Of a DNA stretch of 64,000 nucleotides, positions 460 through 4,799 are shown in pieces (within the stretch, counting starts at the first letter, position 1; every line of letters starts with the position of its first letter). The notes beneath the pieces are model-generated. The model had not been told where the DNA came from. It searched no databases and saw only the letters and a program-made list of their open reading frames with translations. The position numbers were made by a program, and so were the translations under genes. This stretch comes from Verrucomicrobiota bacterium. Lineage in GTDB: Bacteria > Verrucomicrobiota > Verrucomicrobiia > Verrucomicrobiales > Akkermansiaceae. The stretch covers positions 1 to 64,000 of the forward strand of contig RDYP01000003.1 in NCBI GenBank assembly GCA_004293445.1, read 5' to 3'.

Positions 460-2616
460 TCACCCGCCCGCGCCGGTTTTTTCGCGGATCAAGTCGCGGT
501 AAAGCGCCGCTTCCGGCGTCGCCACACGGCGTAGCGACGGATCATGATCGAGGTCGACAAAGTGGAGCCCGAAATCCGTATTCGGATCGAAGGCGTGGCC
601 CCATTCCCGGTTCGAAGTGATCGACCAGTAATTGTAAGCCTTCACCGGCACGCCCTTCGCCAGAGCCCGTTCGACCTCGGCCAAGTGGGTCTCCAGATAC
701 TCGCCCCGACTCATCCCGTCGGCACTGGGAACGCAGCCGTTTTCTACCACCAGCAAGTCCTGGCCGGGGAACCAACGGTGGAAGCGCCGCAAGGCATGAA
801 ACAAGCCGCGCGGCCACACCGGAGCCTTCAAGAAACGCCCGTGCGCCGCCTCCTCCAAGAGCCGGAATCGATGCAGCCGCCATGTCGGCAGACCCCAGTA
901 GTAGTCCAGTCCGACGAAATCCTGCGCGCCTACCGCCTCCGCCGGACAGAGCTCATCGGGCAAGCGCCCGGAAATCCCGAGATACCACCAGTTCGCATTC
1001 GCGATCAAAGTGGTGGTTCCCCAAAATCGCCACGCCCAGTTCAGCCAGCTCGACTTCGAGGCCAGCACTTCCAGCCGTTCGCTCGGCGCGATTGGCACGA
1101 TCTCCAATAAATCGGAATCCCCCAACAACTCGCGGGCGATCCGCCGGGCGAGCTTGAGCTCCAGCCCCTCGCCCGTACAGGCCTCCGACAAGCCCGGCGC
1201 ATCCGTGCGAATCCCCACCCGCAGGCGCCCGCGGCGCCGGATTCTCCGCAGCCCGCGCTTTCCCAAAATGCTCTCCGGCAAAGTATCGCCCACCGCAAAG
1301 ACCTCATGCAGCGACAGGGGCCGGGCGACCTCTTTCGTCCCGACTTCAGGACGCTCCGACCAAGGCTCGCCCGGGGTCTCGGCCAGCTCGCGCACAAAGC
1401 CCACAATCGCACGGTTCACATGTTCCAGCAGCCGGGCGTGACCATGCGGAGCCGCCACCACGTAGTGCTCCTCGCTCAGCCCGGTCACGAGGAAACGGAA
1501 ACGCTCCGGCGATTCCAGCTCGAAGGGCATCAGGTAGAAAGCATCGCCATACAAGGCCGCGACCTTCCCGGCGGCGAGCGAGTGACGAGCTTCATCGTAG
1601 TTCGAAAAAACCCGCACCCGGACCTGAGCCGGCAAATCCCTTTTCCAAGCAGGCGGCGAATGTTCCAGCTCGATCACTCCCACCTCCTTCCCCGCCAGCG
1701 ACGCCAGATCCTCGCCGGGATAGCTCGCCGCAACCAGCAGCGCCTTCCCGGTGCGCAGGTAGCGATCGCTGAACTCAAAACGCGTCTGATCGCCCTCGCT
1801 GACTCCGGCGATCACCAGGTCGACCTCCCCCCTCTCGCTGACCAGCGCTCCTTTGCCCGTGAACTTGAACAAGGCCTCCGACAGACCGCGATGGCAGGCA
1901 CCCCAGTCCATGAGCATTTGCAGCCAGGTCGGGAAGCCGGTGACCAGCGGGTTGACGCCGACCCGTGCCGCCGGCGTTCTCTCCTGGATCGACCGCCTCG
2001 CCCGGGCATGCGCGCGGAAGAGGTTCGGGATGAATTTCCCCACCGCCGCCGCCTCGGCATCCACATCCGTTCCCCGCGGCAGACCCGGCGGCATGTAATA
2101 GCGATGATGCCACCACGGCTTGATGTAACCAAAGGTCAGCTGGCTCGGTTCATTGAAGGTGATCCAGTAATCGACGACATCGCCCAGCGCCTCTGCCACC
2201 CGCGCCGCGTAGCGTGCGAAGAAATCCGGGAAGCCCTCACCGATCATCCCGCCGTGATCCCGCTCCAGCCAGACCGGCCACACGAAATGATGCAGCGTCA
2301 CCATCACCTTCATGCCCTGCGCCCGGATGTGGTCCGCCACCGCACGATAATGAACCAGCGCGTCGGGATCGAATGCCCCCTCCGCGATCTCCACCCGCGA
2401 CCAGGCGACCGAGAAGCGGAACAACTTGCAGCCCATCCCCGCCGCCGCCGCGATGTCCTCTTCGTAGCGATTCCAGAAATCGGTCCCTCTCCCGCGCGGC
2501 GTCAGCCCTTGGCAACGCTCCCAAAGATCCCAGACATCTTCCCGTGCGGGATCGTGCGCCTCCACCTGATGGTCGGCGTTGGCGGTCCCGAACAAGAATC
2601 CCGGCGGAAAGGGCAC
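460..2616 (-). CDS. GH1 beta-glycosidase with an inserted, apparently circularly permuted SBP (family 3) domain
   Basis: Predicted 718 aa against about 450 for ordinary GH1 enzymes. The GTG start gives PFPPGFLFGTA, the classic GH1 N-terminus, with AGGA 6 nt upstream. GH1 part 1 (residues 1-250) holds LHHFVWPVWL and the acid/base ITFNEP (E156). GH1 part 2 (522-718) holds DFVGLDYYWG, the nucleophile segment LLVVENG (E625) and YNYWSITSNREWG. Between them, residues about 263-519 read as an amino-acid-type periplasmic binding protein in swapped order. First comes the part that normally follows (GEVDLVIAG, FSDRY, LAGKEVGVIE, AALYGDAFYL). After a linker (410-449) comes the normal N-terminus (RLRVGIRTDAPG, GLELKLARRIARELLG, ERLEVLAS). 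There is no signal peptide, so it is probably cytoplasmic. The insertion lies between GH1 strands beta5 and beta6, near the active site. Substrate and ligand are unknown; an allosteric role is inference. An open frame extends upstream to 4605, but that part is antisense to the helicase. Confidence 0.85.
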   Translation of the reverse strand: MPFPPGFLFGTANADHQVEAHDPAREDVWDLWERCQGLTPRGRGTDFWNRYEEDIAAAAGMGCKLFRFSVAWSRVEIAEGAFDPDALVHYRAVADHIRAQGMKVMVTLHHFVWPVWLERDHGGMIGEGFPDFFARYAARVAEALGDVVDYWITFNEPSQLTFGYIKPWWHHRYYMPPGLPRGTDVDAEAAAVGKFIPNLFRAHARARRSIQERTPAARVGVNPLVTGFPTWLQMLMDWGACHRGLSEALFKFTGKGALVSERGEVDLVIAGVSEGDQTRFEFSDRYLRTGKALLVAASYPGEDLASLAGKEVGVIELEHSPPAWKRDLPAQVRVRVFSNYDEARHSLAAGKVAALYGDAFYLMPFELESPERFRFLVTGLSEEHYVVAAPHGHARLLEHVNRAIVGFVRELAETPGEPWSERPEVGTKEVARPLSLHEVFAVGDTLPESILGKRGLRRIRRRGRLRVGIRTDAPGLSEACTGEGLELKLARRIARELLGDSDLLEIVPIAPSERLEVLASKSSWLNWAWRFWGTTTLIANANWWYLGISGRLPDELCPAEAVGAQDFVGLDYYWGLPTWRLHRFRLLEEAAHGRFLKAPVWPRGLFHALRRFHRWFPGQDLLVVENGCVPSADGMSRGEYLETHLAEVERALAKGVPVKAYNYWSITSNREWGHAFDPNTDFGLHFVDLDHDPSLRRVATPEAALYRDLIREKTGAGG

Positions 2617-2910
2617 GCCGCATCCTGACCGCTGCCCCCCGTTCCGGCAAAGCCGTTTCACCACGAATCCAACACCTCGGCACCATGCGCGGGCCGCTCG
2701 CTCCGCGGCTCTCGGAAATTGCTTCCGCTGCCATTCTTTCCAAGCGGATGCGGAGGCAACACGGTGCCCCGCATTCCGAGAAATGTTTCTTGCCAGACCG
2801 CGAAAAGCCGCCAGTCTCCGCGCCCCCGCTGTTGCGGGCTGTTCGATCCAGGAGGCCTTTTTGGTTGTGGTTTCCAGGATCATCCGTCCTTGAACCAATA
2901 CCGCCAAATT
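2617..2910. other. Divergent intergenic region, GH1 gene / DEAD-box helicase
   Basis: This 294-bp spacer separates two divergent starts and must carry both promoters. I see no convincing gene. Open frames here are extensions of the neighbours without coding character. The roughly 200 nt upstream of the helicase could be a long 5' leader, as is common for cold-inducible DEAD-box genes, but I find no clear structured element. Confidence 0.4.
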
Positions 2911-4581
2911 ATGGAAACTCCGCCTTTCTCCGAACTCGGCCTGCCCGCCGAACTCCTGTCCGCCATCGAAAAACTCGGCTACGAGCGCCCCTCGCCGATC
3001 CAAGCGATGGCCATCCCCGTCGCTCTCAGCGGCCGCGACATCCTCGGTCTCTCGCACACCGGCTCCGGCAAGACCGCCGCTTTCACGCTGCCACTGCTGG
3101 CCAAGCTCGACTTCAAGAAGTTCGCGCCGCAAGCGCTGATCCTCTGCCCGACCCGTGAACTCGCGGTGCAGGTCTGCGAAGAAGTCCACCGCCTCGGCTC
3201 CCATCTCGGCCAGCTCCGCGCGATCCCCGTTTACGGCGGCGCGCCGATGGATCGCCAGCTTCGCGCTCTGCGCGACGGCGTCCAAGTCGTGGTCGGCACC
3301 CCCGGCCGCGTGATGGACCACCTCCGCCGCGGGTCTTTCGATGTCAGCAAGATCGAAACCGTGGTGCTCGACGAGGCCGACCGCATGCTCGACCTCGGCT
3401 TCCGCGAGGAGATGGAAGAACTGCTCGCCGCGATTCCGACCGAACGCCAGACGATGTTCTTCTCCGCGACCATGAGCCGCGGCGTCTCGCACCTGATCGG
3501 GAAGTTTGGCAACAACGCCCAGACGATCCAGATCGACCAAAAGGCCAAGACCGTCTCGACCATCGACCAGTGCTGCTACGAAGTACGGGAACGCTCGAAA
3601 GTCGAAGTGCTTTCCCGCCTGCTCGACATGGAGCAGTCCCGCCTGGCCATCATTTTCTGCAATACCAAGCGCTCGGTCGACGAGTGCACCGAAGCCCTGC
3701 TCGCCCGCGGCTACACCGCTGATCGCCTGCACGGCGACATCACCCAGCAAATGCGCGAGCGGGTGCTGAAGCGTTTCCGGGATGGCACCATCGAACTTCT
3801 CGTCGCCACCGACGTTGCGGCCCGTGGCTTGGATGTCGAGAACATCGACGTCGTCTTCAACTACGACCTTCCTCAAGATCCTGAGGACTATGTCCACCGC
3901 ATCGGCCGCACCGGTCGCGCCGGACGCAGCGGTCGCGCGGTGAGCTTTGTCTTCGGCCGCGAAATCCATCGGCTGGAGATGATCGAGCGCTACACCCGTC
4001 ACCCGATCCGCCGCGAGCGGGTGCCGACCCAAGAAATGGTGGAAGGCCGCCTTGCTGACCGCTTCTTCGACCAAATCAAGGAGCGCCTGGAGAAGGGCGA
4101 ATTCGAGTCCCACGAGAGCCAGATGGACCGCCTGCTGGAGCAGGGATTCACCCCGACCGATATCGCCGGCGTGCTCATCACCATGCTCAAGGAAAGCTCG
4201 ACCCGCGAGTTCGGTGAAATTGCCGAGGACCGCGAAATCCCTGGCCAACGGGGTCGCCGCGAACCCCGCGAGCCGCGTGGCGACTACCAACCGCGCGAAC
4301 CCCGTCCGCGTCGCGATGGACCGCACGACAACTCCGACATGGTGCCTCTCTTCTTCTCGCTCGGGAAATTCCACGGCGTGAAGGTCGGCGAGATCATCGG
4401 CATGCTTTACGGCGAAGCCGGATTGCCGGACGGCGCCGTCGGCAACGTGAAGCTTTTCGCCAAGCACAGCTGCATCGACGTCCGCGCCGACTGTGCGGAG
4501 CGCCTGGTGCAGATCTCGAAAGGTGCCAGCCTGCGCGGCCGCAAGTTCGTCCTCGACTTCGACCGCGGTCCCCGCGCCTGA
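2911..4581 (+). CDS. DEAD-box RNA helicase with C-terminal DbpA-type RNA-binding domain
   Basis: 556 aa; an ATP-dependent RNA helicase of the DeaD/CshA type, acting in ribosome assembly or RNA turnover. The [11 protein letters not shown] start places the Q motif (F..LGL, then RPSPIQ) at the usual distance. In-frame codons upstream encode low-quality sequence. Core motifs in order: SHTGSGKT (Walker A), [23 protein letters not shown] (DEAD box), [27 protein letters not shown] and [12 protein letters not shown] basic Arg/Gly/Pro/Glu-rich linker (about residues 445-470) leads into a C-terminal RNA-binding domain of the DbpA/DeaD kind ([20 protein letters not shown] through GRKFVLDF). Divergent from the GH1 gene; a second, shorter DEAD-box helicase lies at 20116-21228. 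Confidence 0.93.
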
Positions 4582-4799
4582 GCGGGACCAACGGGCGCGT
4601 CGCACCTCTCGAGCTCATGGGGTTCGAGCTGAGTACGACGGGTATCGTAGATAGAGCGTTCGTCGTCCGATGAATCGCAGATCCGCCTTTCCCGGGCGGG
4701 TCCCTCCCAGCGCATGGCGCTCGCCTTTGCGGGCGAGGCCATCGTGGAAGCGAAGTTTGTCGGCCGGCCCCTGCCCCATTGCAGGGAGAATTGAGCCCT
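4582..4799. other. Convergent intergenic region with a small hairpin
   Basis: The 218 bp lie between the helicase stop and the 3' end of the methyltransferase-like gene. CCCTGC and GCAGGG at 4769-4786 form a 6-bp stem with a 6-nt loop and no strong T-run. It could help end the minus-strand transcript. I see no gene here. Confidence 0.3.

Follow-up and report, generated by a model that had tools for sequence, protein, structure and literature searches.

The locus studied here raises a simple question: has a gene for a GH1 beta-glycosidase really been interrupted by a circularly permuted binding protein, and if so, what might the insert do for the enzyme? The window, a 64,000-nucleotide stretch of contig RDYP01000003.1 from a verrucomicrobial genome of the Akkermansiaceae, carries the gene on its minus strand. 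The following features are referred to below (positions in the window, residues in the protein, SBP for the binding protein).

460..2616, minus strand: whole gene, putative 718-residue GH1 beta-glycosidase with a permuted SBP insert (profile matches; homologues aligned over residues 1-718)
2623..2626, minus strand: Shine-Dalgarno-like AGGA that precedes the GTG by 6 nt (read from the sequence)
1888..2616, minus strand: GH1 N-terminal part, residues 1-243, with beta1-beta5 and the first hairpin arm, helix 230-242 (PF00232 profile positions 5-220; secondary structure of the model)
2149..2151, minus strand: E156, GH1 acid/base, NEP motif (invariant in the homologue alignment A2)
1381..1839, minus strand: C-terminal part of the SBP, first in the chain, residues 260-412, beta3 'VDLVIAG' to C-terminal helix (TIGR01096 positions 81-233; structure matches to glutamate/glutamine-type SBPs)
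1789..1791, minus strand: D276, at the place of the canonical SBP family 3 ligand Arg (homologue alignment)
1489..1746, minus strand: SBP lobe 2, about residues 291-376 (alignment; absent in L063, L066 and L067; gap 288-381 in G022 and G044)
1543..1545, minus strand: D358, canonical SBP family 3 Asp (kept in every full-length A2 homologue)
1258..1380, minus strand: permutation linker, residues 413-453, joining the natural SBP C- and N-termini (low model confidence; variable length)
1060..1257, minus strand: N-terminal part of the SBP, last in the chain, residues 454-519, LRRIRRRGRLRVGIRTDAPG ... SERLEVL (NF008885 positions 29-94; PDB alignments of homologue L059)
460..1059, minus strand: GH1 C-terminal part, residues 520-718, with the second hairpin arm, alpha5 and beta6-beta8 (second PF00232 stretch; model)
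742..744, minus strand: E625, GH1 catalytic nucleophile, ENG motif (invariant in A2)

The reading frame and the GH1 barrel

Read from the sequence, the gene starts with GTG at 2616-2614 and stops at 460-462. The frame is open further upstream, to position 4605, in an extension that overlaps a DEAD-box helicase-like ORF on the opposite strand. We prefer the 718-residue reading over the longer frame because of this overlap and because the homologue alignments begin at the GTG position, where several homologues carry M or V. The antisense stretch itself (2719-4605, a long frame within the 1381-residue minus-strand frame, facing the helicase-like ORF) looks like an artefact of high GC content. As the original prediction had held, no signal peptide is visible by reading in the 718-residue protein, whose chain opens directly with GH1 beta1, and by the same reading the enzyme would be a cytoplasmic glycosidase.

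The Pfam profile Glyco_hydro_1 (PF00232) matches the protein in two stretches, with an E-value of 1.8e-48 and above the cut-off. The catalytic pair had been placed at E156 and E625 beforehand; both are indeed invariant in A2, an alignment of 32 homologues that we used for residue conservation, and so are Q17, H110, N155, Y573, W664, E671 and W672. The roles ascribed to these residues (acid/base, nucleophile, glycone site) are those customary for GH1 enzymes. The window enzyme has 'LDYYWG' at the place where GH1 enzymes commonly have an 'NYY' motif. In the AlphaFold2 model of the full protein (pLDDT 84.6, pTM 0.82) the barrel strands follow in order, and the insert lies between beta5 (218-222) and beta6 (567-575), where it had been expected. 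Known GH1 structures align with up to 393 residues of the model (Z about 38, rmsd about 2.5-4.0), among them 6z1m with Z 38.6, rmsd 2.7 and 375 aligned residues. Since the structural alignment runs from residue 1 to 715, the enzyme is predicted to be complete despite an interruption of 260 residues, with an intact (beta/alpha)8 catalytic barrel. The likeness to GH1 beta-glucosidases (6z1m, 4r27, 1vff, 1od0) thus covers the barrel, the catalytic Glu pair and the glycone-site residues, but in the window enzyme the helical hairpin between beta5 and alpha5 carries the permuted SBP. From its family membership we ascribe to it a putative retaining beta-glycosidase activity.

The permuted insert and its distribution

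The insert comprises about 260 residues of a family 3 SBP with its halves in swapped order. In native order the unmodified window protein gives no match to PF00497 (SBP_bac_3). Residues 262-404 match positions 81-233 of TIGR01096 (whole-protein E 1.4e-9), and residues 454-515 match positions 29-94 of NF008885 (E 2.9e-5). When the halves were rejoined in the order proposed at the outset, PF00497 matched with E 2.6e-6 (27.7 bits against a cut-off of 26.4) and TIGR01096 with E 6.2e-12, the latter match crossing the junction. Taken by itself, the SBP match of the window protein is modest. It is the homologue from Calothrix (L059) that settles the permutation at the level of alignment: PF00497 matches it with E 1.5e-28 in two stretches. 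Against PDB entry 5eyf, query residues 231-296 fall on chain positions 10-75 and query residues 17-185 on 72-238; against GlnH of M. tuberculosis (6h1u), the late stretch falls on 38-110 and the early one on 108-274. As a control, ordinary SBPs of other genomes show the reverse arrangement, with one match abutting the other, as in G490:C229 (query 216-296 at 2365-2610, query 18-178 at 2602-3075). An SBP in standard order within the GH1 enzyme is ruled out by the alignments of L059 and by these controls. The linker between the two halves has a pLDDT below 50 at residues 420-430 and 444-452, and its length varies in the homologue alignment.

Modelled alone, the insert reached a pLDDT of 76.7 and a pTM of 0.73. 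The model resembles amino-acid SBPs (best Foldseek E 2.2e-10; 5eyf with Z 12.1, rmsd 2.7 and 159 aligned residues), so that the predicted fold is a two-lobed type II SBP, with the swapped N-terminal part assigned by sequence. The structure aligners mostly reach residues 18-182 of the insert model only, as is to be expected when sequential aligners meet a permuted chain. Hence both folds foreseen by the original prediction are found in the models. In a non-exhaustive scan of 151 Chloroflexota genomes, the only single match running through both permuted halves came from a GH1 fusion.

Could the fusion be a product of assembly or gene prediction, by which a GH1 gene and an SBP gene were joined by error? 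We regard this as close to impossible. Identical junctions recur in dozens of genomes that were each assembled separately. Among them are cyanobacteria, archaea and the named strains Luteolibacter marinus, Haloferula luteola and Roseibacillus persicicus, and this recurrence rules out a misassembly. The full-length architecture occurs in 15 of the 18 genomes of the window's genus, its own genome included, and in related genera of the family. Named records that carry it come from Luteolibacter, Haloferula, Roseibacillus, other Verrucomicrobiota, Crocosphaera, Calothrix, Anaerolineae and Methanosaeta. Among sampled genomes we found the architecture in 4 of 386 Cyanobacteriota and 3 of 238 archaea (one partial), and in full length in 5 of 400 Chloroflexota. 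The arrangement is therefore real, and it is common to three bacterial phyla (Verrucomicrobiota, Chloroflexota and Cyanobacteriota) and to Methanotrichales archaea; the conservation of the insert extends across phyla.

Some homologous records deserve a remark. L064, titled 'Proteobacteria bacterium isolate Centralia_MAG_106', came from the phylum that also supplied an Anaerolineae genome and clusters with Chloroflexota sequences, and its title is probably wrong. The homologue listed as L015 / L049 (G004:C534) is broken by an in-frame TAG in L015, and the homologue at L072:2615-4671 is split over two overlapping frames; either case may reflect a sequencing error or a pseudogene.

Ligand pocket, selection and losses

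If the insert is a family 3 SBP, does it still possess the residues to hold a ligand? The canonical ligand Arg of this family precedes the F of the 'FS' motif by six residues, a place also visible in the PDB alignments of L059. In the window protein this position is D276. R279, which had been proposed as ligand Arg, lies three residues off and is ruled out by the alignment; D358, the other candidate, holds as the canonical Asp. Each of the eight full-length A2 rows from outside the Akkermansiaceae (L058, L059, L060, L061, L064, L069, L077, L078) has Arg at position 276. In full-length Akkermansiaceae the residue is Asp, Glu, Asn or Ser, never Arg. The Ser/Thr carboxylate motif follows nearly the same pattern, being kept in the non-Akkermansiaceae and lost in the window's lineage. 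D358, S283 and Y286 are invariant in the full-length A2 rows. Most of the Luteolibacter/Haloferula group share the motif GNQP..W.RDLP, from which the window itself departs. The nearest solved relatives are Glu- or Gln-binding proteins. An amino-acid ligand is thus plausible for the ancestral module, probably an acidic one of the Glu/Asp type, and the window protein would not bind it in the usual way.

The insert is under purifying selection: its dN/dS is about 0.07-0.23, compared with 0.06-0.13 for the GH1 part. In comparisons that involve the window its rate is about double that of the GH1 part (omega 0.22 against 0.10). Some relatives have lost portions of the module. Lobe 2 is absent and lobe 1 kept in L063:6754-8604, L066:10001-11860 and L067:1968-3845, which sit on two separate branches; two separate losses of lobe 2 are favoured. 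The whole SBP is absent in L070, L071 and L117-L119, whose GH1 part looks intact. In these five proteins the insertion site is occupied by a long helical hairpin, with residual extra sequence in L070 and L119.

Have these relatives lost the SBP, or did they never have it? In a tree built on the GH1 parts and rooted on ordinary GH1s, both deep branches contain SBP-bearing members, which favours secondary losses over an ancestral absence. The test is marginal, as a constraint that joins all SBP-bearing GH1s in one clade was rejected with a p-AU of 0.047. A single origin of the inserts was not rejected (p-AU 0.17), and the free tree does not unite them in one insert clade. One native SBP, L130, a match with internal stops, has a very long branch in the tree and is placed amid the cyanobacterial inserts; we treat this placement as a long-branch artefact.

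Possible roles of the insert

As a simplest working model, the cytoplasmic GH1 enzyme would bear the permuted SBP at the tip of the helical hairpin that links beta5 to alpha5, on the same side of the barrel as the active site. We infer that the ancestral module would have bound an amino acid between its lobes and modulated the glycosidase. The permutation would set both GH1 junctions in SBP lobe 1, between alpha2 and beta3 of the SBP, so that lobe 1 would be fixed to the hairpin and lobe 2 free to swing. Lobe 2 might then serve as a ligand-moved lid or brake near the active-site entrance. Because both junctions lie in lobe 1, any gating would have to come from the movement of lobe 2. For the same reason, judged from SBP anatomy, we set aside the idea that closure of the SBP might pull the two GH1 ends. 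Gating would be at most modulatory, given the position of the junctions and the intact-looking GH1 part of relatives that lack lobe 2 or the SBP. As these relatives keep the catalytic residues, the fold does not depend on the module, and activity perhaps does not either. Loss of lobe 2 would release the enzyme from control, which fits the observed losses, as neither the barrel nor lobe 1 would be broken. In the window's Akkermansiaceae lineage other residues have taken the place of the Arg and the Ser/Thr motif, but the Asp and the selection persist; therefore the insert might answer to another ligand there or be on its way to a structural role.

It is with moderate confidence, about evenly balanced against doubt, that we explain the whole by an old, ligand-responsive permuted SBP module that modulates a cytoplasmic GH1 enzyme and has been retuned or is decaying in the window's lineage. 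The changed pocket and the faster evolution of the insert in that lineage also fit a slow decay. This leads to an alternative that we judge rather unlikely but worth serious weight: after an ancient insertion the SBP might have ceased to bind a ligand in the Akkermansiaceae and serve only to hold the hairpin or an oligomer interface, with no regulatory role in the window's organism. The missing ligand Arg in all full-length Akkermansiaceae rows and the lost Ser/Thr motif agree with this, as do the two separate Akkermansiaceae lineages without lobe 2 and the higher rate of the insert. However, purifying selection on the insert persists (omega 0.07-0.23) and D358, S283 and Y286 do not vary; the shared motif of most Luteolibacter and Haloferula would also suggest a retained function, even though the window departs from it. 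An improbable role, in our view, is that of substrate capture, in which the SBP would bind the aglycone or the whole substrate (an amino-acid or opine glycoside, for example) and hand it to the GH1 site without regulating it. Judged from the strand order of the model, the insert is placed at the catalytic face of the barrel, and SocA, a sugar-amino-acid binder of the SBP family 3 fold, is among the structural matches. Yet the adjacent genes of Cyanobacteriota and some Chloroflexota point to a chemistry of lipids or sterol-like compounds, and the SBP-less L071 has the same two neighbours (GMC oxidoreductase, patatin), so that the substrate probably needs no SBP.

How does the GH1-SBP enzyme relate to known systems? 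With family 3 SBPs, in particular the glutamate/glutamine binders 5eyf of E. faecium and GlnH 6h1u of M. tuberculosis, the insert shares sequence and fold, and the non-Akkermansiaceae inserts also share the ligand Arg, Asp and Ser/Thr. The insert differs in being permuted, placed within an enzyme and, by reading, cytoplasmic, and in the loss of the Arg in the window's lineage. MltF likewise joins an SBP-like domain to a glycan-cleaving enzyme, a lytic transglycosylase, but it is an end-to-end fusion of the cell envelope, neither permuted nor inserted, and its catalytic domain is unrelated. For a possible likeness to plant SFR2 a literature search yielded nothing usable. GH1 enzymes and family 3 SBPs are each well known; in the open-access literature we found no description of a GH1 enzyme with an SBP insert, or of naturally permuted SBPs, and the nearest printed idea is RG13. 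RG13 is an engineered switch in which a permuted TEM-1 beta-lactamase was inserted in maltose-binding protein (PMC3375305). In RG13 and related switches (PMC3375305), as here, a binding protein and an enzyme are nested by two linkers and one partner is permuted. RG13 is man-made, and in it the binding protein houses the permuted enzyme, whereas here the arrangement has evolved and a permuted binding protein sits inside the enzyme; any switching here would be by analogy. Somewhat more tentatively than for the explanation given above, we suggest a naturally evolved ligand-gated glycosidase, in which lobe 1 would be the anchor and lobe 2 a lid that covers or flanks the GH1 site; lineages would later have retuned its ligand, shed the lid or shed the sensor altogether.

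Engineers build allosteric enzymes by nesting a permuted domain, and the GH1-SBP family would provide a conserved natural example. Relatives with the full module, with lobe 1 only or with none offer a comparative test of whether and how an inserted sensor gains control over a barrel, and of how such control would be lost. The family also suggests an unrecognised link from a small molecule, perhaps an amino acid, to intracellular glycoside cleavage in several phyla.

Around the Akkermansiaceae genes we looked for consistent neighbours from which a substrate might be deduced and saw none, nor was a conserved transporter partner seen among the neighbours of the GH1-SBP gene. The neighbours in Cyanobacteriota and some Chloroflexota comprise a cholesterol-oxidase-like GMC oxidoreductase, a patatin-like phospholipase, an alpha/beta-hydrolase-like protein, an acetoacetate-decarboxylase-like protein and dehydrogenases; in these groups the enzyme may therefore act on a lipid or sterol-like glycoside. 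In about 10 kb around the GH1 gene of L059, L071, L108-L110, L113 and L114, this neighbourhood recurs across two phyla, also with DUF6765 and SDRs, and with or without the SBP insert; it may belong to an undescribed lipid- or sterol-glycoside pathway.
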